Assembly: GCA_900104855.1 (NCBI GenBank)
Contig: FNSS01000001.1
Coordinates: 1,178,001-1,242,000 of the forward strand
DNA from: Rhizobiales bacterium GAS188
GTDB taxonomy: Bacteria; Pseudomonadota; Alphaproteobacteria; Rhizobiales; Beijerinckiaceae
Reading direction: 5' to 3'
DNA length: 64,000 nucleotides
Below, piece after piece: positions 3,874 to 25,418 of this stretch (the stretch's first letter is position 1; each line of letters begins with the position of its first letter). The notes beneath the pieces were generated by a model. The model saw only the letters and a program-made list of their open reading frames with translations. It did no database searches and was not told the origin of the DNA. A program made the translations under genes and the position numbers.

Positions 3874-4638
3874 TCACGGCTTCCCGAGTTCGTCCAAAGC
3901 AAGGTGGAGCGGAGCGCTGGAGATCCGGATCAACCCGCCATAGGGCTGATCCATTTGCACGATGAGAAAGATCGAGCCCGCAACCGACAAGGCGCTCACG
4001 AGCAAGGCAATGATCACCGTCGTGTTGCGGGGAGCGGAGAGTCCGAAGCTCATGAAAATGACCGCAAGCCAGAACACGAGCACGGCCAGGAACGGCCATT
4101 GGATGCTGCCCCGAATCTCTTGAAGCAGCAACCACCGCGCTTCTGCGATATCGCCGCTGATCTGCAATGCACTCGCCTGGAGCGAACGCTGGTTATCGTT
4201 CTGTGGAGCAAGGCCCCGCAGGGCAACCTGAATGGTCTCGACTCCACCGCCCTCGCCGAGAGCGCCTGCTTCAACTGTCCCGTCCTTTTCGTCCGGCCAG
4301 ATCTGGTGGAGCCGCGTTATGACCATCTGACGCAGCAGATCGCGAGCTTCGCGCGTTTCCGGTCCATATTGAGCCATCACACGATCAAGCAGAATGACAT
4401 GAGCCGCCATGTGCTTGAATTGGCTGTCCTTCGCGTCGAAGGAATTCTTGGCGGAGGCAATCAGCAACCCGATGACCAAGGCTGCCAGCGTGGCGATCAT
4501 GGCTGTCGCCACCTTCACGACGTCCTTGGAGTTGGCACTCAAATGATCAGTCGGCAGAAGAGCTGGCAGAAACATGCCGAACAAAGCGCCTCCAAAGACG
4601 CAGGCCAACACGATGCCGCCGATTGCCAAAGCGCTCAT
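3874..4638 (-). CDS. DUF4239 (bestrophin-like domain) membrane protein
   Basis: A 254-residue protein with four predicted membrane helices: two near the N-terminus (about residues 4-26 and 42-64, including VATAMIATLAALVIGLLIAS) and two near the C-terminus (FLAVLVFWLAVIFMSFGL and VIIALLVSALSVAGSIFLIV). The middle is a soluble, mostly helical domain. The layout and the motifs S-A-K-N-S-F-D and M-x-Q-Y-G-P-E-T are those of DUF4239, a family of unknown function distantly likened to bestrophin channels. It begins 9 bases after the AraC gene upstream on the same strand, so the two are probably co-transcribed with the barrel gene at 5751. Confidence 0.82.
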   Translation of the reverse strand: MSALAIGGIVLACVFGGALFGMFLPALLPTDHLSANSKDVVKVATAMIATLAALVIGLLIASAKNSFDAKDSQFKHMAAHVILLDRVMAQYGPETREARDLLRQMVITRLHQIWPDEKDGTVEAGALGEGGGVETIQVALRGLAPQNDNQRSLQASALQISGDIAEARWLLLQEIRGSIQWPFLAVLVFWLAVIFMSFGLSAPRNTTVIIALLVSALSVAGSIFLIVQMDQPYGGLIRISSAPLHLALDELGKP

Positions 4639-4647
4639 GTATCGAAT

Positions 4648-5751
4648 TCACTGTTGCGATTGATGCCGGCTCGCGGCGTTTCTCCAATCCATCGGGGTTG
4701 TGCCGGACCAGCGGCGGAAGGCCCGCGTGAAGGCACTCAGCTCGGAATAGTCGAGCACGGCGGCAACCTGCGACACCGTCAGCGATGTGTCGGCGAGCAG
4801 ATGCCGAGCGATCTGATAGCGAACTTCCGCGACAACGCTGCGGAATTCGATCTTTTCCTCCTCCAGGCGTCGGGCAAGCGTGCGAGCCTCAATGTTGAAT
4901 AGCTTCGCAACCGTATCCAAGGAGCATCGCCGCGACAGAACCAGCGTCCGCAGGAGACGGCGGAGCTGCACGCCGAATTCCTCGCCGACCTTGATGTCGA
5001 GCTCGCCGATACGATCCTCGATCAGCTTGCGGATCAATGGATTGGCCCCGGCTATACGATGCGCGAGCCAATCGATGGTGAAGGTCAGCGCGCCGTGCTC
5101 CGCTCCAAATCGCACGGGCGCTTCGAAGAAATTTTGGAAGGGCCTCGGATCCCGGGGCTTGGCGCGGGGCAACGAGACTTCGATCGGCCGCCAAGATCCG
5201 CCGCAAAGGCCCCGCATGATCTTGAAGTCCAACGCCACCGCGCCGTCGATGATCTGCTGGACGCCAGGCATCGAGCTTTCGAAGATCGTATAGCCGAGGG
5301 AGGCTGTACCGTCGGCTACGTTCAAGATCGGGACGCCGCGACCGTCGTGGATGTGGAGGTGGCGGACCAGATTATCGAGCGCGGTGCGCACGTCGGGCGA
5401 ATTCTCCGCAAGCAAGCCGACGAGCCCAAGCGTGGAAGCCGAACCCTTTTGACCGACCAGCAGGCCGAAATGCTCGCATCCAGTGGCGGCAACACAGGCC
5501 AGCGCCAGACGCTCGAGCGCTGCGAAAGGGATTACATTGTCAGGATCGGCAAAGATCTCGGTATCCAACCCCGCCGCGCTGAGAACAGATTGCGCATCCG
5601 CGCCCAAATCATGGAGGACTTCCGGGATCGCGCTCGCCGCACCAATCCTGATCAGGTCCAGACGGCGCCGGTTGCGCATCGCGTTCACCGTTGGCGATCT
5701 TGGCGCGAAGGCCAAAGCCATCGATCTTTGGCTGAGCCCATGGAGCGGCAT
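4648..5751 (-). CDS. AraC-family transcriptional regulator, paralogue of the 2678-3847 gene
   Basis: Up to 367 residues, with the same arabinose-binding-like domain (IPEVLHDLGADAQSVLSAAG, FGLLVGQKGSASTLGLVGLL) and C-terminal AraC domain (VAKLFNIEARTLARRLEEE, then VSQVAAVLDYSELSAFTRAF and RRWSGTTPMDWR) as the plus-strand regulator about 1 kb away. ATG 5751 overlaps the stop of the upstream barrel gene (TGATG), which suggests translational coupling. ATG 5679 (MRNRRRLDLIRIG) matches the paralogue better. It sits between an outer-membrane barrel and a DUF4239 gene in a compact minus-strand operon. The ligand is unknown. Confidence 0.86.
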   Translation of the reverse strand: MPLHGLSQRSMALAFAPRSPTVNAMRNRRRLDLIRIGAASAIPEVLHDLGADAQSVLSAAGLDTEIFADPDNVIPFAALERLALACVAATGCEHFGLLVGQKGSASTLGLVGLLAENSPDVRTALDNLVRHLHIHDGRGVPILNVADGTASLGYTIFESSMPGVQQIIDGAVALDFKIMRGLCGGSWRPIEVSLPRAKPRDPRPFQNFFEAPVRFGAEHGALTFTIDWLAHRIAGANPLIRKLIEDRIGELDIKVGEEFGVQLRRLLRTLVLSRRCSLDTVAKLFNIEARTLARRLEEEKIEFRSVVAEVRYQIARHLLADTSLTVSQVAAVLDYSELSAFTRAFRRWSGTTPMDWRNAASRHQSQQ

Positions 5752-6749: not shown

Positions 6750-8216
6750 TTACTGGGCGATCAGCAGGGGTTTCGCCTGAACCCTCGTCACCGGTGGCGG
6801 GTTCCATTTCCCCGTGAGCGCCTCCGACTTGGGACCGTAGAGCCGCATGGTCAGATTGAACACTCCTTTCGGCGCGGGCAGCCAGTTTGCCTCGTTATCC
6901 TTACCAGGACTCTCGTTTTGAAAGTAGAGATCGAGTGAACCGTCGAGGTTGTATTTGAATGGCATCCAGCTGCTCACGGCGAAACGGTCGAGCGGGTTCC
7001 CGACCTGAAAGCCTTCCGCGTCGTAGAGAGTGACGGACCAGAACGCGTTGACGGGCGGTATGGCCCCCTTCTCGAAGTGGAGGGTGTATTTGTTCGCACC
7101 ATCGAGCGGCTTGCCAGCTTCGTCGCCGAGATTGAGAGGGTAAATCGCGTCCTCGGGCAGATTGGCACCGAGGCCAAATTGCGTGATCAGGGCGCGCTTC
7201 AGATAATAGTTGCCGTAGACGCCCATCGTGTCGGTGTTCATGGACCAGGAGTTCACGACCCGAGCGAGTGTGGCGACCTTCCATTCCATCAGCTTCTGGG
7301 CATCTGCCGGCGCACTCATCAGGCCATTCCGCATAGCCGACTCGAGCTTGTCGATATCGAAGCTCTTGCCCGGCTCGATGCCGATTCGCTTCATTTGGGC
7401 AATGATCGGCTCATCGGTGATGTGGGGCGGGTGGAGCTTCATAAGGTCTGCGGCGTAAGCGAAGAAACGGCCGGCCGGCATCGTATCGACCTGGGTCTTC
7501 GGCGGCGTCTTCATGTCGACCAGCGGATCGATCTTCACCTCGAGCGGCTTGGGTGTCTTGCCCCATTCGGAGAGCAAAGTGACCTTATAGCCCGCCTGAA
7601 TTTTGTGAACCGCATCGTAGTCCGGCGGACCGTCGGTCTTGGTTCGACCGATGATCCACACATAGGGCGTAGGCGCGTCGATGCGCCTTGTGTCTTTCGG
7701 GAGCTTGAACTCATCGATAAACCGGTCGCGAAGGTCCGGTCTCCATCCGGGCGGCGCAACGAGGAAATTTCCTGCCTGCGTCCCCGTCGTGCGCCAGCCG
7801 GGTGAAGCGAAAACGTCCGTCCACATGTCGAGCATCGGCAGAAGATAATAGCGCCCTCCAGTGTCTGGAACGGAAACGATCACCGGCTCGTTCGTCAGAT
7901 CAAGAAACGCGCTGGAATACAGGGTGTCGAAGTTGGGTCGAACCACCGCCTTGAAGTCGGCGGGTGGAAAGGTTGGCACATTAATGAACATGTTCATTGG
8001 GCCACCCAGCGCAGCTTTGCCAGGCTCGACGTTTGTCAACTGCTTCCGCGTCAGGTCCATCGTGACGAGCGAATAAAAGTAGAGGTAAGCATCGACTCCG
8101 ATGGCATGAGCCTCCTGCTCGCTGACGGGCTGCGAGGCTGTCTGCGCGACGGAAGCAGGAACGCTCATTGCCCCGATAAGAAGGCTCAGGCTCAGAGCAG
8201 CGGCTGTTCCACGCAT
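6750..8216 (-). CDS. Secreted DUF1254/DUF1214 domain protein
   Basis: A 488-residue exported protein. ATG 8216 is preceded by GGGAG at the right distance and opens a signal peptide (MRGTAAALSLSLLIGAMSVP, cleaved after ASVAQ). The DUF1254 half includes AHAIGVDAYLYFYSLVTMD, NMFINVPTFPPADFKAVVRP and N-x-D-T-L-Y-S. The DUF1214 half includes YTLHFEKGAIPPVNAFWSVT and LYDAEGF, and ends with a W-N-P-P-P motif. The pair is common in alphaproteobacterial periplasms and its function is unknown. Upstream lies a promoter segment shared with the adenylate cyclase gene (motif A), so it is probably part of that regulon. Confidence 0.88.
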   Translation of the reverse strand: MRGTAAALSLSLLIGAMSVPASVAQTASQPVSEQEAHAIGVDAYLYFYSLVTMDLTRKQLTNVEPGKAALGGPMNMFINVPTFPPADFKAVVRPNFDTLYSSAFLDLTNEPVIVSVPDTGGRYYLLPMLDMWTDVFASPGWRTTGTQAGNFLVAPPGWRPDLRDRFIDEFKLPKDTRRIDAPTPYVWIIGRTKTDGPPDYDAVHKIQAGYKVTLLSEWGKTPKPLEVKIDPLVDMKTPPKTQVDTMPAGRFFAYAADLMKLHPPHITDEPIIAQMKRIGIEPGKSFDIDKLESAMRNGLMSAPADAQKLMEWKVATLARVVNSWSMNTDTMGVYGNYYLKRALITQFGLGANLPEDAIYPLNLGDEAGKPLDGANKYTLHFEKGAIPPVNAFWSVTLYDAEGFQVGNPLDRFAVSSWMPFKYNLDGSLDLYFQNESPGKDNEANWLPAPKGVFNLTMRLYGPKSEALTGKWNPPPVTRVQAKPLLIAQ

Positions 8217-8276
8217 AGAATGCTCCCACTCTGGACCATCGATCCCTTTGCGAGCGGGATCGCAATCGTTCAAAGT

Positions 8277-8356
8277 CTCGAGACGCTATCACACGTTACC
8301 TTGTCCGCTAGATTGTCCGCTGCTCGGGCATTGGGCAATATGTGGAAGTACGTATC
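8277..8356 (-). promoter_or_regulatory. Motif A promoter segment, copy 1 (drives the DUF1254 gene)
   Basis: About 80 bases closely match the segment at 10893-10972. Both contain AGACGCTATC, then exactly 52 bases from its first base to the first base of the core GGGCAATATGTG (here 8333-8355), whose remainder is GnAnGTACGTAT. On the minus strand the core lies about 117 bases upstream of ATG 8216. The core is an imperfect dyad of the form ATAyGTrC...GyACrTAT, as expected for a dimeric LuxR/FixJ-type regulator. GATAGCGT may be the -10 element. Confidence 0.6.
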
Positions 8357-8532
8357 GCTTCGGCACCGCGTACCGGATTGCGTGTTCTGCTTAGATAAGA
8401 CGGCTGCGACTCTTAGCTTGCGCCCTCCTAGCGTTTGTGCCGCCTGCATCTCGATTGCCAACCGTAACAAAGGGAGGCTATTCTCACTTCACCCGAGCGT
8501 CGCATGGACGCCGGAAATCAGGGAGGCAAACT

Positions 8533-8751
8533 ATGAGACCGTGGATCATTTTGCCGACATTCCTTGCGCTCGCTTTGTTCGTGGCGATTCCCGCTTCGAC
8601 GAAGACCCACGCGATGAGTATTGGCGCGGTGGTCACCAAGGCAGACGACAGCTTGATCGTCTTGAGCGCGGTCAGCGCCGCCGCGAGGAAGGCTTGCCAT
8701 CATTTCCGCAACCGGACGCAGCGCCACAAGTGCGAGCACGAACACATGTAG
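8533..8751 (+). CDS. Small secreted protein, Cys/His-rich C-terminus
   Basis: A 72-residue protein from ATG 8533, with GGGAGG six bases upstream. A hydrophobic signal (RPWIILPTFLALALFVAIPA, cleavage near STKTHA) is followed by about 45 mature residues ending in ACHHFRNRTQRHKCEHEHM. The two cysteines and four histidines could form a disulfide or bind a metal. No family is recognised. It lies 3' to 3' with the adenylate cyclase gene and has no partner on its strand. Confidence 0.6.
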   Translation: MRPWIILPTFLALALFVAIPASTKTHAMSIGAVVTKADDSLIVLSAVSAAARKACHHFRNRTQRHKCEHEHM

Positions 8752-8777
8752 GCTGGCCCGCTAGCGCACTCATGTGA

Positions 8778-8812
8778 CTGGGCGCCGCTGCCCTTTCGGG
8801 GCGGCGGCGTCC
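8778..8812. terminator. GC-rich hairpin between convergent genes
   Basis: CGCCGCTGCCC and GGGCGGCGGCG pair around a TTTC-type loop between the small secreted protein and the 3' end of the adenylate cyclase gene. No long T-run follows, so this is a possible shared terminator only. Confidence 0.35.
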
Positions 8813-8834
8813 TCGCCGATCGTCAGGTTCAGCG

Positions 8835-10811
8835 CTACGAGAGCTGCTCTACAATTCTGCCAACTCCAGCGAAGCCTTCATTTTCGCGCGCGTCGCAAAG
8901 CTCAAAGGCGTCAACTTCCTCCTCTCGCCCTTTTACATGGACGGCACCGAGCGGCCGGAAGCGAAAGCTGGATCTTGCTCCGCCGGCTACGGCGGCGCTA
9001 ACCAGGATCGTCGTTTTGAATTCCTTGTTGAGGCCTTCGAGCCGAGAGGCGACGTTCACCGCATCGCCCATCGCCGTATATTGAAAACGATCCTTGGCGC
9101 CGACGCTGCCGACAACCACGGCGCCGGTATGAATGCCGAAGCGCGTGCCAAATTCGGGAGCGCCGCGTCTTCTTTGGTTCGCATTGAAGTCATCGATCCG
9201 CGCTTTCAGCTCCAAGGCGCAGAGACAAGCGCGGTCGATATGCAAATCATCCGGTTGCGGCGCGTTCCAAAGGGCAAAGACGGCATCGCCCGAAAACTGG
9301 ATGATGACGCCGCGGCGGCGTTGAACGATCTCGCTGAAGAGGTCGAAATAATCAGAGAGCATCGACACCACGTCTTCGGCCGAGTGCCGTTCGCAGACCG
9401 TCGTGAAATCCATGATGTCGCTGAACAGCGCCGTCACGTTCTGCCGCTTCCCAGTGCGGCCGGTGAACTCGCGCGATCCGATGATGCGCCGCACGAGCTC
9501 CTTCGGCACGTAGAGGCCAAAGGTGGAAATCGTTTCACGCGCGGCGCTCACCGCCGCTCCGAGCTGCGATATCTCAGCGATTCGAGACCTGACCCGCTCG
9601 GTTGCCCCGAGCTCGAAGCGTCTCAGCCCATGGGCCTGAGCGGTGATTGCGCCGAGTGAGCGGCTCATCCGGCTCGCGACCAGGAAGGCGCACAATACGC
9701 CGATCGCGAGGACGACCGCAGAAAGCATCAGCCCCTGCTCGAGGAGCCGCTCGCTCGCGGCCGTGAGGTCGGAGACCGGTGCGATCGAAGCGATGTGCCC
9801 TCCCTCGAGCAAAGGTGTCGACGATATCGACAAGATGACGAGCAGGTAGTCGCGGCCATTGACGGGAAGCGTCCAGGTTCCGCTCCCGCCGCGTTCGATG
9901 CCGGCGATCACAGCCCTGGCGCGGTCGATGAGGCGGCCCGATTCGCTCTGAAAGGGCGGGCAGTTCTCGGTGCATTGAGCCTCGATCGCGGAAATTTGGT
10001 CTGATCTGGCGATCAGGCGGCTCGATGCATCGAAGACGAAGACCCTCGAACTGGGCGTGATCAACTGCGTGGAAAGGAACGCGTCTATGGTCCCCAGCAG
10101 GACGTCGGCCCCCATGACGATCGTGCCATAAGCGGAATGACGTCGCGCAAGGGTGATTCCAAGCTCGTCGGTCGTCGCCATGTGGTAGGGAGCGGTCGAG
10201 ACCAGCGAGGCTTGTTGCACCGCGGATAGATACCAGGGCCGTGTGCGCGGATCATAATTCGCAGGCTGCGGATCGGTGCTCGCCAGCCAGCGACCGTCGG
10301 CATCGATGAATTCCCAACGCGATGTGCGCCGCCCCTGATCATCGATCGCAATGATCCGCGTCGCAAATGCGGCGTCGTCGGGCCCCAAGAGAGCGGCTCG
10401 CCAAAGTGGATTCTTCTTGACGTTGACGACATGCACGAAGGCGCCAGTGGGGTATCCGACATAAGCGCCATCGATATATTCGGAGCTGCGCAGGAGCCGC
10501 TGCAGGAAGCGTCCAAGGGTCGCTTGGTCTTCCGTCTCGGGGCGTCGCACGACTTCGCTGCTGCTTGCGACCTCGACCGCCAGCGCCGCGCTGCCAAAGA
10601 CGATCCGATAACGATCGACAATGCGCTCGGAAAAGATCCGCATTTCCTGGCTCGCGGAAGCAAGAGCCACTCGCCGTCCTTGATAGAAATTCAACCCGAT
10701 GAGAACCGCCGAAGTCGCAATGAGCAGCATGACGACAATGACGCTCAGATGGAATCGCAGTGGCCGCGTCCAAGGGGCAAGCCCAGCATGTGTCTGGTCG
10801 CTCGTGGTCAA
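8835..10811 (-). CDS. Class III adenylate/guanylate cyclase with periplasmic Cache-type sensor and HAMP
   Basis: A 658-residue membrane enzyme making cyclic nucleotide from NTP. The N-terminal membrane helix (HLSVIVVMLLIATSAVLIGL) and a second helix (GLMLSAVVLAIGVLCAFLVA, about residues 365-385) bracket a Cache-like sensor containing YDPRTRPWYLSAVQQ and IVMGADV. A HAMP-like linker (ASRMSRSLGAITAQA) leads to the cyclase domain: metal-binding TALFSDIMDFTTVCE and GVIIQFSGDAVFALW, and the transition-state region YTAMGDAVNVASRLEGLN. Both metal aspartates and the Asn/Arg pair are intact, so it should be active. The start is TTG and weakly supported. Motif A lies about 138 bases upstream. Confidence 0.88.
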   Translation of the reverse strand: MTTSDQTHAGLAPWTRPLRFHLSVIVVMLLIATSAVLIGLNFYQGRRVALASASQEMRIFSERIVDRYRIVFGSAALAVEVASSSEVVRRPETEDQATLGRFLQRLLRSSEYIDGAYVGYPTGAFVHVVNVKKNPLWRAALLGPDDAAFATRIIAIDDQGRRTSRWEFIDADGRWLASTDPQPANYDPRTRPWYLSAVQQASLVSTAPYHMATTDELGITLARRHSAYGTIVMGADVLLGTIDAFLSTQLITPSSRVFVFDASSRLIARSDQISAIEAQCTENCPPFQSESGRLIDRARAVIAGIERGGSGTWTLPVNGRDYLLVILSISSTPLLEGGHIASIAPVSDLTAASERLLEQGLMLSAVVLAIGVLCAFLVASRMSRSLGAITAQAHGLRRFELGATERVRSRIAEISQLGAAVSAARETISTFGLYVPKELVRRIIGSREFTGRTGKRQNVTALFSDIMDFTTVCERHSAEDVVSMLSDYFDLFSEIVQRRRGVIIQFSGDAVFALWNAPQPDDLHIDRACLCALELKARIDDFNANQRRRGAPEFGTRFGIHTGAVVVGSVGAKDRFQYTAMGDAVNVASRLEGLNKEFKTTILVSAAVAGGARSSFRFRPLGAVHVKGREEEVDAFELCDARENEGFAGVGRIVEQLS

Positions 10812-11095: not shown

Positions 11096-11704
11096 CTAAG
11101 GGGCGTCCCGTTCGAAGACGAGGCGGATCAGCTCCGCGACCGAGTGCACCCCCAGCTTGTCCAGGATGTGGCTGCGATGCAGCTCAACGGTGCGATAGCT
11201 GATGTCGAGCGCTCTGGCGATCGACTTGCTGGAGAGCCCTTTCACGACCTGATCCATCACCTCGCGCTCGCGTTGCGTCAGCGTTGCCAGACGTGCCGCG
11301 AGCCCATCGCGGGTGTAGGCGCCGTGCCGGTCGACGGCATCGCGCCGCAGCGCATCGTTGATGCTGTCGAGCAATTGTTGCTCACGATAGGGCTTTTGAA
11401 CGAAATCGACGGCTCCTGCCTTGATCGTCTTGATGGCCACTTGAATGTCGGCGTGGCCGCTGATGAACACGATGGGGATGCGCGCACCGATCGCGTTCAA
11501 CTCATGTTGTAGCTCAAGACCGCTCATATGCGCCATCCGGACGTCGAGAACGAGGCAACCTGGCTGCTCCGGGTCAAAGCTGGTGCGGAACTCCTGCGCG
11601 GAACGAAAGGTGGCAACGCGCAAGCCGACCGAGCTCACCAATTCCGCGATCGAGTCCAAAACCGCCTCGTCGTCGTCGACAATGAATACAGTAGGCTCGG
11701 ACAC
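11096..11704 (-). CDS. FixJ/NarL-type response regulator
   Basis: A 202-residue two-domain regulator. The receiver has the acidic cluster FIVDDDEAV, the phospho-acceptor Asp in CLVLDVRMAHMSG, the switch serine in FISGHAD and the lysine in DFVQKPY, so it should be phosphorylated normally. The LuxR helix-turn-helix follows (LTQREREVMDQVVKGLSSKS, YRTVELHRSHILDKLGVHSV). The start is GTG 11704, four bases after the kinase stop, with GAAGGAGG at the right distance. It is co-transcribed with the ethylene-receptor-like kinase, its obvious partner, and is the best candidate to bind motif A. Confidence 0.9.
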   Translation of the reverse strand: MSEPTVFIVDDDEAVLDSIAELVSSVGLRVATFRSAQEFRTSFDPEQPGCLVLDVRMAHMSGLELQHELNAIGARIPIVFISGHADIQVAIKTIKAGAVDFVQKPYREQQLLDSINDALRRDAVDRHGAYTRDGLAARLATLTQREREVMDQVVKGLSSKSIARALDISYRTVELHRSHILDKLGVHSVAELIRLVFERDAP

Positions 11705-11708
11705 GCCG

Positions 11709-13523
11709 TCAGCCTCCTTCGTTCGCAATAGGCAGCGTGAATTGAAACACGCTTCCGCTGCTCGCATTCGAGGCGAGCGACAGGCGCCCCCCATGCGCTT
11801 CGACGATCGAACGCGAGATTGAGAGCCCGACCCCCAACCCCTGGGGCTTGGTGGAGTAAAACGAGTCGAATATGTGTTCCAAGTCGTCCGCGGCGATGCC
11901 GGGGCCCGAGTCGGCTACACTCACGAGGACCTCGTTTTCGGTAGTGCCCACGACCCCGACCTTGAGCACACCGTCGGTCATGCCGGCGGCCTCCATCGCC
12001 TCGATTGCGTTATGTGCCAGGTTCAATACGACTTGCTGGATTTGTATGGCGTCGGCGAAGACCGGCGACAGGTCCGGTTCAGCCGCGACTTCGAGCCGGA
12101 TATCCGCGATGCGTTTCTCCATTTCCACTAGCCGCAAGGTACTCGCTACCAGCTGGCCGACTTCGACCATGGTCGCCTCGGATTGGTGCATTTTGACCAT
12201 GGCCCGCAAGGAATGGATGACTTCGCCCGCACGAGATGCTTGCGCGCTGATCTTGTCCATCAACTTCTCGACCTTCGCTGTTTCCGAGGCGTTGCCCGTC
12301 GGTAGCCGTCGTCGCGCCGCGAGCGCATAGTTCTTGATGGCGACGAGGGGCTGGCTGATCTCGTGCGCGATCGCCACGGACATCTCGCCGGCGGTGCGAA
12401 CACGAACCAGATGCGCGAGGCGCTCACGGAACTGCCCTGTCTCGAACTTCGCTTCGCCGACTTGCTCCGCCGCTCGCTGGCGCACCAGCAAGCTGCCGAA
12501 TATCTCACCGATCAGTCGCAATCTCGAGAGCAGCGCCTCGGGCCAAGCACGCGCCACGCTGACGATGTCCAGTGAAACCGCCCCTATTGTTGCGTCGTCG
12601 AGTGCGAGGGGTACCATCAGAAGCGATTGAGCTCCCATTTGGCGCAAGGTCCGCTTCTGGGGTGTGAATTCGGCCAGTGTTCCGTCAACTTTGGGCAGAC
12701 TGACGATATCACCCTGCGCGATCCTTGCGACGATCCAAGGAAGTCGCTCATCAACGGCCAGAGGCCGAAGCGACACGATGCCGTTTGCAACCCATGTGTG
12801 CGTGGGCTCGAATTGCGTTCCGCCGGTGCCCAGCCTCCAAAGAGCGGCCCGCTCCGCTCCGAGAAATTCGGCGATGGTCTGCAGCGCCGTCCGGATCGCG
12901 CCATTGATATCGCGCTGCAGCGTTCCCAGCAGAGACGTGGAAATCTCTGCCAGCAATCTCTCGAAGGCGAGAGCCCGTTCGATCTCGTCCTGCGCGCGCT
13001 TACGGGCCCGGCCTTCCGCCTCAAGCTCGGCCGTACGCGCGGTGACCCGGCGCTCGAGTTCGCCGTTCGCGTCCCGAAGCGCCGCCTCGGCGCGGTGCCG
13101 CTCGCCGATCTCGTGCTCGAGCAAACCGTTCGCCCTCTCCAGCTGTTCGGTGCTCGGCAGCGCGAGTGCCAAGGGCATCGCCTGCCACATCGCGAAGGCG
13201 GTGCAAATCGAGACCAAAGCGGTGGCCAGCTTGATCGTGCCGTCGATCCAATAAGCCGGATACCACAGTGTCACCACCCCCATGATGTGAGTGGTCCCGC
13301 ACGCCAGAATGAAAACGCCGGTGAGAATGAATATTCCGCGAAATTCCAGGTCGTGGCGTCTCGACACAAAATAGATCAACACCAAGGGGATCGTATAATA
13401 CGCGATTGCTATGACGGCATCAGAGAGGACGTGCAACCAAAGCAACCCGGGTTGCCAGAGTAAACACACCCCGTGAGGAATGTAGGTCTGTTCCGAAAAA
13501 AACTGAGAAAATGATGACAGCAT
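11709..13523 (-). CDS. Ethylene-receptor-like (ETR1-type) sensor histidine kinase
   Basis: A 604-residue membrane kinase. The N-terminus has three helices matching the ethylene-binding domain of plant ETR1: LSDAVIAIAYYTIPLVLIYF, then FILACGTTHIMG, then a third helix with TIKLATALVSICTAF. Asp35, Tyr42, Pro46, Cys75 and His79 correspond to ETR1 Asp25, Tyr32, Pro36, Cys65 and His69, a constant offset of ten; Cys65 and His69 hold the copper cofactor that binds ethylene. A coiled coil (about 125-185), a GAF domain (about 195-345), the His387 H-box (AIAHEISQPLVAIKNY), an N-box (NLAHNAIEAME) and G-boxes (VADSGPGI, GLGVGLSISR) follow. ATG 13523 has GGAGAG upstream. Ligand binding is inferred. Confidence 0.88.
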   Translation of the reverse strand: MLSSFSQFFSEQTYIPHGVCLLWQPGLLWLHVLSDAVIAIAYYTIPLVLIYFVSRRHDLEFRGIFILTGVFILACGTTHIMGVVTLWYPAYWIDGTIKLATALVSICTAFAMWQAMPLALALPSTEQLERANGLLEHEIGERHRAEAALRDANGELERRVTARTAELEAEGRARKRAQDEIERALAFERLLAEISTSLLGTLQRDINGAIRTALQTIAEFLGAERAALWRLGTGGTQFEPTHTWVANGIVSLRPLAVDERLPWIVARIAQGDIVSLPKVDGTLAEFTPQKRTLRQMGAQSLLMVPLALDDATIGAVSLDIVSVARAWPEALLSRLRLIGEIFGSLLVRQRAAEQVGEAKFETGQFRERLAHLVRVRTAGEMSVAIAHEISQPLVAIKNYALAARRRLPTGNASETAKVEKLMDKISAQASRAGEVIHSLRAMVKMHQSEATMVEVGQLVASTLRLVEMEKRIADIRLEVAAEPDLSPVFADAIQIQQVVLNLAHNAIEAMEAAGMTDGVLKVGVVGTTENEVLVSVADSGPGIAADDLEHIFDSFYSTKPQGLGVGLSISRSIVEAHGGRLSLASNASSGSVFQFTLPIANEGG

Positions 13524-13995: not shown

Positions 13996-14364
13996 ATGGG
14001 CGAGACAGTTTACATTGTCGATCCGTTACCTGCCGAGCGCAGCCAAATCCTGGTCGCGCTGGCGAGCGAACCCGTGACCCTGGAGTGTTACGAAAGTGCG
14101 GAGCAATTTCTATGCCATCCCGGCACAATGGCGCCCGGATGCGTGATCGCCCTCGTCGATCTTGAGGGCATGGGAGTGCGGGGACTGATCAAAGAGATCC
14201 TTCGCCGTGATCTTGCGCTTGCTGTCGTGGTCATCGGACGCAGTTCCGATCTCGTGACGGCGGTTGAACTTGTACGCGCGGGGGCGTCCGATTTCCTCGA
14301 ACGCCCGTTCTCGGATCGTCGACTGCGATCAGCCGTGCGCCGGGCGATCGGTGGTGAAGCATGA
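13996..14364 (+). CDS. Stand-alone receiver domain, degenerate FixJ-type
   Basis: A 122-residue single receiver (VYIVDPLPAERSQILVALAS, ALVDLEGMGVRGL, VVVIGRSSDLVTAVEL, ASDFLERPFSDRRL). It follows the FixJ N-domain fold and keeps the phospho-acceptor Asp, but the acidic pair is reduced to Asp-Pro and the conserved switch lysine is arginine (ERPF instead of QKPF/EKPF). Normal Mg-dependent phosphorylation is therefore doubtful. It could titrate or bind the neighbouring kinase, or work without phosphate. It is divergent from the ethylene-receptor-like kinase and preceded by motif A. Confidence 0.72.
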   Translation: MGETVYIVDPLPAERSQILVALASEPVTLECYESAEQFLCHPGTMAPGCVIALVDLEGMGVRGLIKEILRRDLALAVVVIGRSSDLVTAVELVRAGASDFLERPFSDRRLRSAVRRAIGGEA

Positions 14365-16493: not shown

Positions 16494-16883
16494 TCACTCG
16501 ACGTGGCCGGACACGTCGTTGACGGCTTCACCGATCGTCCGCAGGAGCTTCGCCTGGTCGAGCGGCTTGGGCAGATATGCCAACGCGCCGGCCGCCAGAC
16601 AGAGCGCCCGGGACGCCGGCTCGTCACGGCCGGTGATGATGATGGCCGGTATTCTCTGCCCGGCATCGGTCAGCGCCCTGAGTACATCCAGGCCGCTCAA
16701 GCCAGGCATATGGAGATCGAGCACCAGGCAATCCGGGCGAGTGGCCTGCAACGAATCGAGAAACGCCTGGCCGGACGGGAAAGTCGCTACGTCGAGATGC
16801 GACGCGACAATCAGGCGCTTGAGTGCCCTGCAAATCGCCTCTTCATCATCGACGACGGCAATTAAAGGCAGTTTGTTGGCCAT
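16494..16883 (-). CDS. Stand-alone response-regulator receiver
   Basis: A 129-residue single receiver. All key residues are present: acidic pair in AVVDDEEAI, phospho-acceptor in CLVLDLHMPGLSG, threonine in IIITGRDEP, lysine in LPKPLDQ. There is no output domain, so it probably relays phosphate or modulates the adjacent kinase, as CheY- or FixT-like partners do. ATG 16883 is chosen because residues before it lack homology. It lies 96 bases downstream of the LuxR-type regulator on the same strand. Confidence 0.83.
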   Translation of the reverse strand: MANKLPLIAVVDDEEAICRALKRLIVASHLDVATFPSGQAFLDSLQATRPDCLVLDLHMPGLSGLDVLRALTDAGQRIPAIIITGRDEPASRALCLAAGALAYLPKPLDQAKLLRTIGEAVNDVSGHVE

Positions 16884-16979
16884 TTGGCCGCCTGACACTT
16901 CAAAGCTGACAGGGAACGCTCCGCGGCTCACCGGCGGCATTGGCCGGCTCATGGCCAACCGAAAGTGGGCATCAGGCAA

Positions 16980-17684
16980 TCAGTTACGACGCCCATGCCT
17001 CAAATCATAGATGGACCTTAGCCCCATCCAGTCGGGTGAGTCCGGGTCAGCGCCCGAACGCATATCGGCCGGCATAAACCCCGCCTGATCCGTCATTCGC
17101 ACCAGCTCGGCAACCGACCTCACGCCCATTTTCTCCATCACCCGCGCGCGGTGCACCTTGATCGTCTTCTCGGCCGTGCCCAGCTCCCCGGCAATCTGCT
17201 TGTTGAGGCGGCCGGCGATGACGCGCCGAAGGACTTCGGTCTCGCGCGGAGTCAGCGTGGCGAGCCGGCGTCCGATGGCGTCCAACTCCCTGTGGGCTCG
17301 GCGGGCCGTGTCGTCCTTCTCGATAGCAAGGCGGATAGCGGCGAGCAGATCCTCGGCCCGGACCGGCTTGGTAAGAAAGCTCACGGCGCCGGCCCTCATG
17401 GCGCGCACGCTCATCGGGATGTCGCCCCGGCCGCTGAGGAACACGACGGGCCGTTCGCACCCTGACGCAGCCAGCTTCTGTTGCAGCTCGAGGCCGTTCA
17501 TTCCGTCCATCGCGACATCGAGGACGGCGCAGCCGGGTATTGCGGGGTCATGTTGCTCCAGGAATGCCTGCGACGAGAGAAAGCCGCGAACCTCGAAGCC
17601 GGCGCCACGCAGCAGACGCTCCAACGCCCTCAAGATCGCCGGCTCGTCGTCGACGACAAAGATGGTGTTGGCTTCACCCGTCAT
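16980..17684 (-). CDS. FixJ/NarL-type response regulator
   Basis: A 234-residue regulator: a receiver (FVVDDEPAI, CAVLDVAMDGMNG, FLSGRGDIPMS, FLTKPVRAEDL) and a LuxR-type DNA-binding domain (LTPRETEVLRRVIAGRLNKQ, EKTIKVHRARVMEKMGVRSV). ATG 17684 overlaps the kinase stop (ATGA) and has GGGAGG about eight bases upstream, showing tight coupling to the kinase gene. About 35 residues extend past the LuxR domain. Its position next to the sulfatase genes makes it the natural candidate to bind motif B. Confidence 0.9.
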   Translation of the reverse strand: MTGEANTIFVVDDEPAILRALERLLRGAGFEVRGFLSSQAFLEQHDPAIPGCAVLDVAMDGMNGLELQQKLAASGCERPVVFLSGRGDIPMSVRAMRAGAVSFLTKPVRAEDLLAAIRLAIEKDDTARRAHRELDAIGRRLATLTPRETEVLRRVIAGRLNKQIAGELGTAEKTIKVHRARVMEKMGVRSVAELVRMTDQAGFMPADMRSGADPDSPDWMGLRSIYDLRHGRRN

Positions 17685-19969
17685 TGGCGGAGCCTCCCAT
17701 CCGCCGGGAGGGTGACGAAAAATGTGGCGCCGTGCTCCACATTGTTCATGGCCCATAACCGGCCGCCATGCGCCTCGATAATCGAGCGGCAGATGGACAA
17801 TCCAAGCCCCAATCCCCGCGACTTCGTGGTGACGAAGGGTTTGAACAGCCGATCCAGCATGTCCGCCTTGATCCCTCTGCCCTTGTCGCCAACCGAGATT
17901 TTTGCAGTGACGCGCCCTTCCGGAGCCGTCATGACGGTCAGCTCGCGTTCGCCAGGCTCGTTCTCGGCCATGGCGTCGCAGGCGTTGAAGATCAGGTTCA
18001 GCAGCACTTGCTGCAATTGCACGCGATCCCCCTGCACCACCGGCAGATCGTGCGCCAGGCGGGAGGTCACGCTGATCCTGCGAGCCACCAGGTCACTGTG
18101 CACGAGCTTGAGCACTTCGGCCACGACTTCGTTGAGGTAGAGAGGATGGATCTGCGCATCGGTCTTGACGAACAATGCGCGCAGATGCCGGATGACTTCG
18201 CCGGCGCGGGCGGCCTCGGTCACGATGTCCGCGAGAATGTCGCGCAATTCGGCGATGTCGCAGTTCTTCACGGTCAACAGGAGTTGGGCGGCGTCAGCAT
18301 TGCTGAGGATGGCCGTCAGGGGCTGGTTCAGCTCATGAGCCATTGCGCCAGAAAGCTCGCCCAGGGTGGCAACGCGCGTGAGATGTGTCAATTCCTGGCG
18401 CCAATGGGTCGATTCCCGTTCCGCCGTCCTTTCCTGGGTGACATCTATCACGATTCCGGTGATCTGCGCCGGCCGCCCGGAGGCGTCGACCTTGGTGCGC
18501 CCGACTGTGCGGATCCAATGCTCGGAACCATCCGCTCGCATCAATTGATGCTCCGTCTTGTCAGGCTCTCCGACAGTCACGGCCTGTCCGGCGGATTGCA
18601 GGGAGCTGATCAGGTCCTCGCGATGCACCAAGCCGAGAAAGCTTTCCAGCGTCACCTCGGGTTGTGAATCCAGACAGACGAGCTGCCGGCAGATATCGGA
18701 CATCCAAAGCCGATTGCTCGCAATCTCCCAGTGCCAGAGGCCGAGATTTGCCGACTGCGTCGCCAGGTTCATGCGCTCTTCGCTGTCACGCGCCGCCTGT
18801 TCGGCGCGCCGCCGGCGCCGCCCTTGCAACAGCAGCGCCGGGATCAGCAGGGATTGCGCAAGAAGCAGACCCCCGGCGGTCAGGAATTGCCACCTGTAGG
18901 TTTTCCACAGCGACGGTTCCCTGAAGCGCAGCACGCTGCCCGGCGGCAGCTTCGATTCGTCAAGCCCCCAACGCTGCAATTGCCGCCAGTCGACGTAATT
19001 CGCTGGGGCCTCCGAGTGGCGGATCGGTATCGCCTCGGGCTTTTCGCCGGCCAGGATCCGAAGGCCAAGTCGCCCGGCCTCCCGTCCCATGGCCTCGAAC
19101 GTGTTCATGTAACCCCCGACGATGCCGCGCCCCAGATAGGAGTCGTAAACCGCATAGACAGGGGCGCCGGCCGCCTCCGAAAGCCTCTCGGCCACATCTC
19201 GGGGAATGAAGGACTGGCCCGCTCCATCTCGGAGAATGGAGAGATACAAGACGATCGTATCCGGGGACAGCCGACCCATCTGGTCCAACAGCTCGGCCAT
19301 TGGCAGGCCGGAAAGGTAGGTGATCCCGAGCTGGCTCCCGTAGGGAAGCAGTGCGCGGCGGGCCGTCTCCTGCCAGTCTCTATCGGGGGAGGCGGCGCCC
19401 GTCACGACAACCAGATGCCGGGCTTGCGGCTGCAGCCTCAATGCCAGTTCTACCGTCGGCACTGGATCGAGGCGGCTCGTGATCCCGGTGACACCGGGCG
19501 GCAGATTGCGAAGCCGCCCGGTATCCTCTCTGATCCCGGTGAAGATAAGCGGTGCGTCCGCAAACAGGCTGGTCCGGCGCTGTGCCAGGAAGTCCAGAGC
19601 CTTTGGACCCGTCACGATCAGCAAATCGATCGGGCGTTCGGCGTATTTCTCCCGGAGAAACGCCGCCATTCGCGTTTCCTGCTCCGGTTCGGGAAAATGT
19701 TCAGCGTCCAGGAACTCGCTGAAGATTTCGAGCCGACCAGATAGTCGTGATTGCATTTCCTGTCGAATGCCGGCGTCGACGATGCTCGTGGCCGGCAGGA
19801 CGCTCTGGTTCGAGTGGACGATCAACACCCGCCTCGCGTCGTCTGCGCGGGAGATCGTCACGCCGCAAAGCGACAAGACAAGGGCGATGCCGGCATATAT
19901 CGCAGACCGAGCGGCAGGCCCAACGCCGGTCAGGCGTTCACGCTCGCTCGCGGCGGTCCTGCCACGCAT
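17681..19969 (-). CDS. Sensor histidine kinase with ABC-substrate-binding-like periplasmic domain
   Basis: A 762-residue kinase from ATG 19969. A first helix or signal (about 20-38) precedes a periplasmic domain of some 310 residues with features of the ABC_sub_bind family (RRVLIVHSNQSVLPATSIV, IDLLIVTGPKALDFL, VYAVYDSYLGRGIVGGYMN). A second helix (about 356-378, FLTAGGLLLAQSLLIPALLL) leads to a PAS domain (NLGLWHWEIASNRLWMS) and a kinase core: MAHELNQPLTAILSNADAAQ with His about 545, NLIFNACDAMAE, GDKGRGIK and GLGLGLSICRSI. The sensor suggests detection of a small solute, perhaps a sulfated or aromatic compound given the adjacent sulfatases; that ligand is a guess. Confidence 0.87.
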   Translation of the reverse strand: MRGRTAASERERLTGVGPAARSAIYAGIALVLSLCGVTISRADDARRVLIVHSNQSVLPATSIVDAGIRQEMQSRLSGRLEIFSEFLDAEHFPEPEQETRMAAFLREKYAERPIDLLIVTGPKALDFLAQRRTSLFADAPLIFTGIREDTGRLRNLPPGVTGITSRLDPVPTVELALRLQPQARHLVVVTGAASPDRDWQETARRALLPYGSQLGITYLSGLPMAELLDQMGRLSPDTIVLYLSILRDGAGQSFIPRDVAERLSEAAGAPVYAVYDSYLGRGIVGGYMNTFEAMGREAGRLGLRILAGEKPEAIPIRHSEAPANYVDWRQLQRWGLDESKLPPGSVLRFREPSLWKTYRWQFLTAGGLLLAQSLLIPALLLQGRRRRRAEQAARDSEERMNLATQSANLGLWHWEIASNRLWMSDICRQLVCLDSQPEVTLESFLGLVHREDLISSLQSAGQAVTVGEPDKTEHQLMRADGSEHWIRTVGRTKVDASGRPAQITGIVIDVTQERTAERESTHWRQELTHLTRVATLGELSGAMAHELNQPLTAILSNADAAQLLLTVKNCDIAELRDILADIVTEAARAGEVIRHLRALFVKTDAQIHPLYLNEVVAEVLKLVHSDLVARRISVTSRLAHDLPVVQGDRVQLQQVLLNLIFNACDAMAENEPGERELTVMTAPEGRVTAKISVGDKGRGIKADMLDRLFKPFVTTKSRGLGLGLSICRSIIEAHGGRLWAMNNVEHGATFFVTLPADGRLRQ

Positions 19970-20446
19970 ATTCGGCCAACCCGGCGATAGACAGGCGTGG
20001 CGCCGCGGCGCTCGCCCCTGCTTGGCCGGACGGCATTCCGCCTCGAGGCTCGTCCCGAGGCTGCGATCAAGATGAGCGTTGCGACCGCTCGGCTGATCTC
20101 CGCCGTGTTCCAACTGCCCGCGCCTCCACCACATAAAAGCTTTGCGCGGCGCGCGTCCCGCACATTCGATTCAACTCAATCGCGATCGGGCCTCTCAGGA
20201 TCCCGCGCGCAGGTGACCGCTCATTGATATCATTCGTTATGCTTGGCAGCAGCAACTTAGTTGATATTCGACCGTAAATCTTACGACATCGCATTGGCAG
20301 CGAAATTTAACTCAGATCGGCAAGATAATTCTTAAAATTTGCTCAATCGCGAAAAAACTGAAATTACCAGGCGGATCGTGACCCACGGCCGTTAAACCCG
20401 CCGACCAGCGTCCTCCTCAGCAAGGTCGAGACGCTCGACGGGTTAC

Positions 20447-20464: not shown

Positions 20465-20605
20465 AGCCGCCCGATCGAGCTTCGTTCACATATGTCATCG
20501 TGGCCGCCGAGCCGCGGTTCTCCCGAGGCTGACAACGCAATGGCGGTAGGTTCGGCGCCCTGACGATGCGCCCGATCGGTCCGAGATTCAATCATGGAGG
20601 CGATG

Positions 20606-22252
20606 ATGAGACGAAAGTTTCTTGCCTATGGCCTGGGCGGCTTGATCGCTGCGGCCATGTTGTGGACATCGTTCGGCCCCGTGCAGGCTCAGCAGCCGGC
20701 GAAACCCAACATCGTCGTGATCACGGGCGACGATATCGGCTGGTTCAACGTCGGCGCCTATCATCAGGGCATGATGTATTCGACGACGCCGAACCTCGAC
20801 AAGATGGCGGCCGAGGGCATGCGCTTCACCGATTACTACGCGGAGCCGAGCTGCACTGCCGGCCGCGCCAACTTCATCACCGGCGAGTTGCCGATCCGCA
20901 CCGGTCTGACCACGGTCGGCCAGGCGGGCGCCACGGTCGGGATGCCCGACGAAGCGCCGACCATCGCGACTGCGCTGAAATCGATGGGATACACCACAGG
21001 CCAGTTCGGCAAGAACCATCTGGGCGATTTGAACCGCTACCTTCCGACCGTACATGGTTTCGACGAATATTTCGGTTATCTCTATCATCTCGACGCGATG
21101 GAAGACCCTTTCTGGCACTCCTTTCCGCCGGCGCTGAAGGACACTGTCGGACCGCGTAATCTGCTGCACAGCTTCGCCGCCACCACCGACGATCCGACGG
21201 TGCAGCCCCGTTGGGGCAAGATCGGCAAGCAGGTCATCACGGACGAAGGGCCGCTGCCGCCCCATCCGATGCCCGGCATCAAGTACAATATGGAGACGGT
21301 CGACGAGGATATCCTCGACTACTCCGTCAAGTTCATCGACAAGGCCAAGGCAGCCGGCAAGCCCTTCTTCGTGTGGGTCAATCCCACACGCGCCCATGTG
21401 ATCTCGCACCTGTCGCCGAAATATGCCGGCAAGCTGACCGGCGACAACCAGTGGTATCTCGAGGAAGGCGTGATGTCCCAGCTCGACGACGTGGTCGGCG
21501 GCCTGATGGCCAAGCTGAAGGCCGAGGGGCTCGACGACAACACCATCGTCGTCTTCACGACCGATAACGGCACCGAGAACTTTACTTGGCCGGATGGCGG
21601 CAACACGCCCTTTGCGGCCGGCAAGGGAACTATCATGGAGGGCGGTATGCGGGTGCCGATGATCGCCCGCTGGCCGGGCCACATCCCAGCCGGCAAAGTC
21701 GAGAACGGCATCATGTCGGGCCTGGACTTCTTCCCGACCCTAGTCGCCCTGGCTGGCGATCCCAATATCACGAACGAGCTGCTCAAGGGCAAGCAGCTCG
21801 GCGACACGACCTACAAGGTCCATCTCGACGGCTACGATCAGACGAATGTGCTGACCGGCAAGGGACCTTCCAATCGTCATGAGATCTTTTACTTCGCCGA
21901 AGGCACCCTGGGCGCGGTTCGCATCGACGACTGGAAGTTCAGGATGATCGACCAGCCGGACGGTTGGCTTGGCGGGACGGTCAAGGTCGACTGGCCGATA
22001 CTCTCCAATCTCCGGCTCGATCCGTTCGAGCGGATGCAGTTCCAGAAGGGCAACACGGGGTCCTTCATGTACGTTTCGGAGTTCTACATCCACGAGTTCT
22101 GGCGTTTCGTCTTCCTGCAGCAAAAGATCGCCGAATTCGCACCGAGCTTCATCGAGTTTCCACCAATGCAGCGTGGGGCGAGCTTCAATCTCGAGGCGGT
22201 CAAGGCCGAGATCGAGGAGCGCATAAAGGCGATGAAAGGCAAGATGGAATAG
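20606..22252 (+). CDS. Secreted arylsulfatase-family enzyme 1
   Basis: A 548-residue periplasmic sulfatase of the alkaline-phosphatase superfamily. The start with MRRKF is chosen because GGAGG is five bases upstream and the same GGAGGCGATGATGAGACG context precedes sulfatase 2. After a signal peptide (to about VQAQ), PNIVVITGDDIGW supplies the metal-binding aspartates and PSCTAGRANFITG is the sulfatase signature, with Cys83 as the residue normally oxidised to formylglycine. FVVFTTDNGTENF-type motifs (VVFTTDNGTE) complete the metal site. The signature has Ala where the usual C-x-P-x-R has Pro. The substrate is unknown. It is preceded by motif B. Confidence 0.88.
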   Translation: MRRKFLAYGLGGLIAAAMLWTSFGPVQAQQPAKPNIVVITGDDIGWFNVGAYHQGMMYSTTPNLDKMAAEGMRFTDYYAEPSCTAGRANFITGELPIRTGLTTVGQAGATVGMPDEAPTIATALKSMGYTTGQFGKNHLGDLNRYLPTVHGFDEYFGYLYHLDAMEDPFWHSFPPALKDTVGPRNLLHSFAATTDDPTVQPRWGKIGKQVITDEGPLPPHPMPGIKYNMETVDEDILDYSVKFIDKAKAAGKPFFVWVNPTRAHVISHLSPKYAGKLTGDNQWYLEEGVMSQLDDVVGGLMAKLKAEGLDDNTIVVFTTDNGTENFTWPDGGNTPFAAGKGTIMEGGMRVPMIARWPGHIPAGKVENGIMSGLDFFPTLVALAGDPNITNELLKGKQLGDTTYKVHLDGYDQTNVLTGKGPSNRHEIFYFAEGTLGAVRIDDWKFRMIDQPDGWLGGTVKVDWPILSNLRLDPFERMQFQKGNTGSFMYVSEFYIHEFWRFVFLQQKIAEFAPSFIEFPPMQRGASFNLEAVKAEIEERIKAMKGKME

Positions 22253-22275
22253 CAGCCGGCGCGAGGTTGCCGTTA

Positions 22276-22304
22276 CGCCCGCCCGGGTCGTACCCGGGCG
22301 GGCG
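22276..22304 (+). terminator. Strong hairpin after sulfatase 1
   Basis: Perfect 13-base arms (22276-22288 and 22292-22304, rich in CCCG/CGGG) enclose a three-base loop, 23 bases after the sulfatase stop. The following sequence is AGTTGGTAG rather than a T-run, so this is a stabilising stem or imperfect terminator. Confidence 0.55.
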
Positions 22305-22382
22305 AGTTGGTAGCACGTTCAATGGGTTATAGTATTGAATTAAGTAACCCTCTCCAACTCGGCCTATCGAGGAGCCATCACG

Positions 22383-22754
22383 ATGTTGAAAAAATTACCC
22401 ATCGGCGCAGCGATTGCGACAGTGCTGCTGCTCTCGGCCTGCCAGTCCACTCAGCAGACCGTCCAAGGCAAGGAAGACCTTCTGTCTGCCGCTGGATTTA
22501 GTATCAAACCGGCAAACTCTGCCGCGCGACTGGCAGCCATGAAGAAACTGCCGCCACACAAATTTGTCCAGCAGACATCGGGGACGAATGTGGTCTGGCT
22601 CTACGCGGATCCGACGATTTGCCAGTGTGTGTATTTTGGAGATCAGACCGCCTGGGCAAACTACCGAGCGATGGTGTTCCAGAAGCAAATTGCTAATGAG
22701 CAGCAGATGACCGCGATCATGAATCAGAACTCGTTCGATTTCGGCCCATGGTGA
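22383..22754 (+). CDS. Small lipoprotein
   Basis: A 123-residue protein with GAGGAG upstream of ATG 22383. The signal peptide ends in a lipobox (LLLSAC, Cys20), so the mature protein should be lipid-anchored. The remainder contains ARLAAMKKLPPHKFVQQ and NVVWLYADPTICQCVYFGDQ with a Cys-x-Cys pair, and a Gln/Met-rich tail. Similar short lipoproteins occur in Hyphomicrobiales without known function. It lies between sulfatases 1 and 2. Confidence 0.72.
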   Translation: MLKKLPIGAAIATVLLLSACQSTQQTVQGKEDLLSAAGFSIKPANSAARLAAMKKLPPHKFVQQTSGTNVVWLYADPTICQCVYFGDQTAWANYRAMVFQKQIANEQQMTAIMNQNSFDFGPW

Positions 22755-22817
22755 CGCGATCTGACGACCGAGGAGGATCAGCCATTTCGGTGCGGATCAT
22801 TCGGCCTCGCGGTGCGT

Positions 22818-22832
22818 GTGGGACCAAGGTCG
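22818..22832 (+). promoter_or_regulatory. Motif B site upstream of sulfatase 2
   Basis: GTGGGACCAAGGTCG keeps the GGACC-AA-GGTC core but lacks the CAAT extension found in the other copies. It is about 97 bases before the sulfatase 2 start. Confidence 0.5.
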
Positions 22833-22929
22833 CTGGGTGAGCCGGCCTTCGAGTGGGCGAACACGCCATGCTCGAAGCAAGACGACAAGTGACTGCCGAT
22901 TGGAAGGAATTTCAACAGCGGAGGCGATG

Positions 22930-24606: not shown

Positions 24607-24629
24607 ATCCTCGATCTAGACGCCACGAC

Positions 24630-24660
24630 AAGGGGCGTGCACAATCGCGCGCCCCTTTTC
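24630..24660. terminator. Bidirectional intrinsic terminator
   Basis: AAGGGGCGTGC (24630-24640) pairs with GCGCGCCCCTT (24647-24657) with one G-U pair and a six-base loop, followed by TTTTC. It lies between sulfatase 2 and the convergent gene at 24666, and the minus strand begins its 3' side with an A/T-rich flank as well, so it may serve both. Confidence 0.65.
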
Positions 24661-24665
24661 GATGG

Positions 24666-25076
24666 CTACTCCTGGCCCATGCTCGGGAAGGTGATGCCGG
24701 TAATCTTGCCGCTCTCGTCGAAGCCGATGAGCAAGCTAAGCGCGTCGCCCCGTTGGAGGAAGAGTTTCACCACGTAGAACGTCTGATCTTGAATCTTACG
24801 GCTCTGAACGATCTCGTCTCCCGTCGCAGGACCGTACGAATTGAGGTAGCGCGACATCCCGGTCACTGCCTCATCGGTCAAGTGTTCGCTAAACGCCGTC
24901 GTCATCTGCGTCCGGTCGATTTGACCCGCCTGAAGCTGCTTATACCATTCCAACGCGAAAGCTTTCACGCTGTCGCTCGACCTTGGATCGGCCGGTGACA
25001 TTTGGTCGCCGAAGGAGGGCGCGACAGACATCAGCAGCGCTCCGAGCACTGTCGCCAAGCCCAAATGGCCCTTCAT
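24666..25076 (-). CDS. Small exported protein of unknown function
   Basis: A 136-residue protein with GGGAG before ATG 25076 and a signal peptide (MKGHLGLATVLGALLMSVAP, cleavage near SFGDQ). The mature part contains VKAFALEWYKQLQAGQIDRT, TAFSEHLTDEAVTGMSRYLN and a C-terminal beta-rich TFYVVKLFLQRGDALSLLIG. The helix-then-sheet order resembles small NTF2/DUF3887-like domains, but the match is too weak to assign. It is convergent with sulfatase 2. Confidence 0.6.
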   Translation of the reverse strand: MKGHLGLATVLGALLMSVAPSFGDQMSPADPRSSDSVKAFALEWYKQLQAGQIDRTQMTTAFSEHLTDEAVTGMSRYLNSYGPATGDEIVQSRKIQDQTFYVVKLFLQRGDALSLLIGFDESGKITGITFPSMGQE

Positions 25077-25400
25077 CCGAGTTCTCCCTCTTGGTTCCGA
25101 GATAGCCTATCTGCATGGTCCCGATGGAGGCGCATCAGGAGCGGTCGCTCGCCGAGCCGCTCGGCGCGATCTGCTTCCGCCACTCGTCGTGGAGGGCCAC
25201 CCGTAATCAAAAGGCTTCGGCATTGTTATTTTGTCGAATAGCGTTGGCCCACGGTAGCTCACGACCAGATCGAATACGATTCAATACCAGGCGCAATATC
25301 AAGGCGCAATTCGCAACGACCTGTCATCCCCGACCGCGATGAGCATGATTCGGTGCTGCAAAACGATTCCGACGCCGTTCCGCGCGGCCCATCAGGTCGC

Positions 25401-25418
25401 ATTGGACCAAGGTCCAAT
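25401..25418 (+). promoter_or_regulatory. Motif B palindrome upstream of sulfatase 3
   Basis: ATTGGACCAAGGTCCAAT is a palindrome with perfect eight-base arms (ATTGGACC/GGTCCAAT), the most symmetrical of the four copies, followed by AGCCGCCC. It lies about 190 bases before ATG 25608. No gene is seen in 25077-25607. Confidence 0.6.

Follow-up and report, generated by a model that had tools for sequence, protein, structure and literature searches.

Among the bacterial ethylene receptors described to date, AzoEtr1 of A. brasilense is a protein of 525 aa in the order ethylene-binding domain (EBD), PAS and kinase, and it binds 14C-ethylene (PMC11819568, excerpts). According to the same excerpts, aa 1-130 bind 14C-ethylene, disruption of AzoEtr1 removes most of the saturable binding by cells, D35A and C75A versions have been built, and either ethylene or AzoEtr1 disruption leads to less biofilm and root colonisation (PMC11819568). 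SynEtr1 and GeiEtr1/2 are the cyanobacterial cases (PMC6682694, excerpts), and many bacterial species have already been predicted to carry a functional domain (PMC11819568, excerpts). Bacterial ethylene receptors are thus already known, and the kinase presented here is a new example, not a new kind. A sequence-only reading of this DNA had placed the established receptors in plants and cyanobacteria, a list that leaves out Azospirillum, the host of AzoEtr1 (PMC11819568, excerpts).

The kinase gene lies in a stretch of 64,000 nucleotides, hereafter the window, with the following features:

11709..13523, minus strand: ethylene-receptor-like histidine kinase gene (ATG at 13523, stop at 11709, 604 aa)
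Kinase aa 27-122: ETR1_N domain (Pfam, 128.8 bits, E = 9.9e-38, cut-off 27)
13122..13523, minus strand: predicted ethylene-binding domain, with D35, Y42, I45, P46, I72, C75, H79 and K98
Kinase, between ETR1_N and GAF: linker
Kinase aa 207-335: GAF domain
Kinase, at H387EISQP: HisKA-like stretch (22.9 bits, just below the Pfam cut-off of 26.9)
Kinase aa 491-600: HATPase_c domain
11096..11704, minus strand: FixJ-like response regulator, receiver plus GerE/LuxR DNA-binding domain (likely GTG start at 11704)
8835..10811, minus strand: class III adenylate/guanylate cyclase (dCache-like stretch of 35.3 bits, below the cut-off of 45)
13996..14364, plus strand: divergent, degenerate receiver-only protein (122 aa from an internal ATG)

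The coordinates 11709..13523 proposed earlier for the kinase are correct. We assigned the gene to the minus strand because the domain matches decide between the open frames; on the plus strand of this interval, frame 1 contains stops and a 278-aa frame (12627-13463) is also open. The resemblance to ETR1_N is far above chance, and the genome holds a single copy of this domain. Hydropathy analysis, with overlapping windows merged, gave three hydrophobic stretches within the domain (27-55, 58-88 and 93-122) and a further one above the threshold inside the GAF domain (300-324). The kinase motifs HEISQP (His387), NLAHNA, DSGPGI, DSFYSTK and GLGVGLS follow in this order at positions 387, 501, 538, 553 and 562. 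With an H-box and a HATPase domain, and paired to a regulator with receiver and LuxR-type domains, the kinase has the composition of a two-component system, HisKA itself being below the Pfam cut-off.

All seven residues that ETR1 needs to bind ethylene have their counterparts here (D35, Y42, I45, P46, I72, C75 and H79), with K98 in addition. Aligned to an ETR1 reference sequence, they correspond to D25, Y32, I35, P36, I62, C65, H69 and K91. The list of seven follows in part excerpts of PMC6586836 and PMC11819568, the latter of which prints the AzoEtr1 pairs D25/D35, C65/C75, H69/H79 and K91/K98. Asp35, Tyr42, Pro46, Cys75 and His79, the residues named in the sequence-only reading, were all found in place, I45, I72 and K98 being additions to its list; the constant shift of ten relative to ETR1 that it described holds in helices 1 and 2 and becomes seven at K91/K98. 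On an ideal helix with 100-degree periodicity, C75, H79 and I72 fall within 60 degrees of one another, and D35, Y42 and P46 within 40 degrees, each set sharing one helical face in this idealised geometry. In the ETR1 model, C65 and H69 form the Cu(I) site, with one copper per monomer (PMC6586836, excerpts). A search for solved structures of the domain found none at E up to 1.

The kinase and the FixJ-type regulator are tightly coupled, since only 4 nt separate the kinase stop from the likely GTG start of the regulator; an AAGGAGG sequence lies within the last kinase codons. The regulator had been anticipated, and it does combine a receiver with a GerE domain (FixJ match, 203.3 bits); its receiver residues are D40, D41, D84 and K134, numbered in the longer frame from 11794. 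A FixL/FixJ system proper was considered and rejected, as the matches to the FixL equivalog (198.8 bits versus 850) and to FixJ (203.3 versus 255) fell short and no PAS match was found at E 0.001. The degenerate receiver proposed near the kinase was also confirmed, on the plus strand and divergent from it. When it is aligned to the regulator, D41 is replaced by Pro, the acceptor D84 by Leu (with an Asp two residues further) and K134 by Arg. Promoter-like signals numbered 2 (1.4 expected) and terminator-like signals 4 (4.8 expected). Elsewhere in the window, a second set on the minus strand at 16494-20134 comprises an 817-aa PAS kinase, a FixJ-like regulator and a receiver-only protein, and cross-talk between this set and the ethylene-receptor pair is possible. 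Three sulfatase genes lie on one strand at 20594-27215 (plus).

We compared this arrangement with loci fetched from other genomes, which are given L-numbers (L001 being the window itself). Many of these loci extend just 1.5 kb past the match, and neighbour counts were thus taken from the 77 longer ones, a set in which some members resemble the family weakly and some places occur a second time. A receiver frame overlaps the kinase end in L002 and L217, the nearest kinases by domain, and in AzoEtr1 (L104); in L002 and AzoEtr1 the overlapping regulator is receiver-only. No receiver match was found beside L218, a fourth member of the tree group, on its 3,248-base contig. FixJ-like matches occurred in 7 of the 77 loci and were weak (28.8-34.9 bits), and neither the cyclase nor the GAF stretch had matches there, so no second case of an EBD-GAF-kinase combined with a DNA-binding regulator of FixJ-like type turned up among the fetched loci. 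In an Acetobacteraceae MAG (L046), a full FixJ-like gene (142 bits) stands just before a frame-split copy of the domain at 4523-4775.

Given the domain, all the required residues, the kinase and receiver motifs and the gene coupling, we consider the gene product likely to be a bacterial ethylene receptor of the same type as AzoEtr1, SynEtr1 and ETR1, in which predicted Cu(I) and ethylene binding would be relayed by the kinase to FixJ-type transcription control. On helix 2, C75 and H79 are separated by a single turn and would together coordinate one Cu(I) in each subunit, inside the membrane, and helix 1 (D35, Y42, P46) would form the pocket in which ethylene binds this copper. Binding would alter the linker/GAF connection and change the autophosphorylation of His387, probably lowering it. 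The phosphate acceptor would be Asp84 (numbered in the longer frame) of the next gene's FixJ-like product, whose LuxR-type domain would then alter transcription of its putative target genes.

A first alternative is that the domain holds Cu(I) as a sensor of copper, or of redox state or another small molecule, and that ethylene binding is incidental. The retained Cys/His copper ligands agree with this, and so does a group of related domains that stand in one frame behind a copper-type P-type ATPase and thereby tie the family to copper handling. In four of four such loci from Bacteroidales/Bacteroidetes MAGs (L040-L043), the ETR1_N domain follows HMA, E1-E2 ATPase (with CPC and DKTGT) and hydrolase domains (Pfam) in one open frame:

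L040, 5352-12260: ATPase-ETR1_N fusion frame
L041, 5343-10334: ATPase-ETR1_N fusion frame
L042, 5382-9182: ATPase-ETR1_N fusion frame
L043, 5373-10433: ATPase-ETR1_N fusion frame

Kinase domains follow the fused ETR1_N in L040, L042 and L043, and L041 has only PAS and GAF before the stop. The 344 genomes of the order to which the L041 genome belongs gave 8 ETR1_N matches, 6 of them over the cut-off (L041 plus five more). In four of the additional five (L229-L232), CPC, DKTGT and GDGIND precede the domain within one frame, as judged by a motif test only, and L228 was missed by the pattern. Copper-type ATPase/ETR1_N frames were therefore found in eight Bacteroidetes/Bacteroidales genomes in all, four by Pfam and four by motifs only; in the rest of the 209 loci, the frame that holds the domain lacks DKTGT. 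In the open-licence literature, we found no link between ethylene receptors and P-type ATPases in bacteria. In plants the P-type ATPase RAN1 supplies copper to ETR1, and by analogy the fusion may therefore be a one-protein counterpart of the RAN1-ETR1 pair. RAN1 is named in connection with copper supply to ETR1 in excerpts of PMC12586476.

Against a copper sensor in the window, the four aligned fused domains carry Asn and Asp at the places of D35 and K98, whereas the window protein keeps the full ethylene set, and AzoEtr1, which has the same residue set, both binds ethylene and shows a response to it (PMC11819568, excerpts). Taking both sides together, we regard the copper-sensor explanation as unlikely. 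The paired change of Asn for D35 and Asp for K98, with Cys and His intact, was seen in seven sequences (L032, L034, L036 and L040-L043). Those from gammaproteobacteria (L032, Methylotuvimicrobium; L036, Methylomicrobium; and L034) do not group with the Bacteroidales ones in a weakly supported tree, and the change possibly reflects a compensated contact or another ligand. Outputs of related domains vary further: in L032 (7956-10544) and in L037 of Methylovulum (7932-10556), ETR1_N is followed by PAS, GGDEF and EAL, so that c-di-GMP in these hosts is possibly under ethylene or copper control. Methylotuvimicrobium, Methylomicrobium and Methylovulum are genera of methanotrophs. Searches of open-licence papers returned none on K91 and, judging by titles, nothing to the point on an ethylene receptor with a methanotroph or on Methylotuvimicrobium.

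A second input by way of the GAF domain is plausible, as GAF replaces the PAS of L002 and L195, and the GAF stretch of the window, used as a query, matched no other fetched locus (E 1e-6). The kinase might then sense mainly through GAF, with the three-helix part as a structural membrane anchor. An anchor would not need the conservation that we observed, with C75 invariant and Y42, P46 and H79 at least 90% conserved in an alignment of 39 sequences (the window and 38 of 45 fetched loci) that spans Cyanobacteria, Proteobacteria and Bacteroidetes, and we consider this explanation more doubtful still than a copper sensor. Equally improbable is a combined ethylene/cAMP circuit with the neighbouring adenylate cyclase and the degenerate receiver as further members. 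These genes do lie near one another in the window, and in the nearest relatives (L002, L217 and L218) the contigs stop too close to the kinase to show whether the cyclase is conserved. On the other side, 284 bp separate regulator and cyclase frame, none of the 77 related loci (3.7-11 kb) has a cyclase match at E 1e-6, and L001-L104, many of them short, gave a sole, weak match (L010, 58 bits) in another multi-domain frame. The cyclase, correctly reported near the kinase (8835-10811), is thus probably a neighbour outside the circuit. Of the ethylene- or copper-responsive circuit suggested by the sequence-only reading, the predicted ethylene receptor is well supported by sequence, through the numbering shared with AzoEtr1 (PMC11819568, excerpts), and the kinase/FixJ coupling is tight, whereas membership of the cyclase is not supported.

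Of 397 genomes from the host's own family (Beijerinckiaceae), 74 carry the ETR1_N domain, spread over 20 of 43 genera. At the level of the order it was found in 64 of 397 genomes, with 55 scoring above the cut-off, and at that of the class in 28 of 385. Within the genus only one of four genomes carries it, and the domain is therefore accessory. We read all 85 family places (L001, L047-L075 and L105-L159). All eight residues are intact in 63 of them, window included; four others have Ser for P46, one has Met for I45, 15 carry two or more changes, L146 is cut by the contig end and L150 lies in a short frame. In the weakest family members both Cys and His are lost, and these proteins must respond to another signal or to none. 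In a mixed set drawn from 209 loci (L001 and identical sequences dropped, window and ETR1 reference uncounted), 138 of 185 distinct sequences keep all eight, a proportion that leans towards intact copies since most were fetched as best matches. The sequence-only reading had implied that an intact Cys/His pair is seldom seen among such sensors; both counts speak against this, and intact residues are the common state among strong members. With intact domains this widespread in the family, bacterial ethylene sensing becomes testable in many hosts.

In a tree of 187 aligned domain sequences (FastTree, 112 columns, rows with at least 35 gaps dropped), the window domain groups with that of L002 (support 0.979), then with L195 (0.915) and L189 (0.93), and falls apart from the remaining receptors found in the host's family. 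This grouping, together with the presence of the domain in just one of four genus genomes, suggests horizontal transfer and domain exchange, as read from a short alignment; GAF in the window kinase stands where L002 and L195 have PAS. A search of a plasmid collection with the full kinase gave matches in 4210 records, only one of them over 80% of its length and all with less than 60% identity. As for the lifestyle of the host, the suggestion of plant association gained no ground from its genome, in which neither ACC deaminase (four matches; controls match in 6 of 14, none over the curated cut-off) nor nifH (four weak matches; controls match in 14 of 14, three over) gave a match over the curated cut-offs. 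PmoA/AmoA gave no match in the same genome, but the controls were also silent, so that this shows no absence.

The features may be joined into one picture, to which we give an even chance: a two-gene circuit from ethylene to transcription, in which a copper-loaded ETR1-type module would have been exchanged horizontally, re-plugged from PAS to GAF kinases and made to drive a FixJ-like regulator directly, within a wider family whose copper-type ATPase fusions would be the one-protein RAN1-ETR1 counterpart. As a candidate, the window kinase enlarges the set of bacterial receptors by one in which no binding residue is missing; features of its own are the GAF in place of PAS, the DNA-binding regulator and a probable horizontal origin.

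Compared with its nearest relative, L002 (Rhodopila sp. MAG RYN_443), the kinase has an 81% identical domain, a similar linker and likewise a receiver gene at the kinase end, which in L002 overlaps it; L002 differs in its PAS instead of GAF and its receiver-only 134-aa regulator, and overall identity is 46%. Cyanobacterial domains of unnamed function are 48-62% identical to that of the window. GeiEtr1 of Geitlerinema has the same EBD-GAF-kinase order (PMC6682694, excerpts), and SynEtr1 (slr1212) of Synechocystis PCC 6803, likened here by description, also joins an ethylene-binding domain to a kinase but has a cyanobacteriochrome light sensor. Plant ETR1/ERS1 (subfamily 1) have their domains in the order EBD-GAF-histidine kinase, like the window kinase, and the seven binding residues are all shared, with 33% identity to the ETR1 reference sequence over 111 domain positions; plant output is mainly kinase-independent (PMC11819568, excerpts), whereas the bacterial phosphorelay motifs of the window protein are intact. 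AzoEtr1 (L104, Sp7) matches the window kinase in its N-terminal ETR1_N, residue numbering, cytosolic sensor domain, HisKA/HATPase and directly downstream regulator gene, with 28% identity overall and 54% over 111 domain positions, and differs in having PAS where the window kinase has GAF. Its paired regulator, AzoRR(etr1), has 135 aa and, in the excerpted description, no recognised output motif (PMC11819568), whereas the window regulator has its own LuxR-type DNA-binding domain. An ethylene regulon would for this reason be readable from DNA binding here, and ethylene-controlled genes, if the proposed circuit is true, could be mapped directly, unlike in the AzoEtr1 system.
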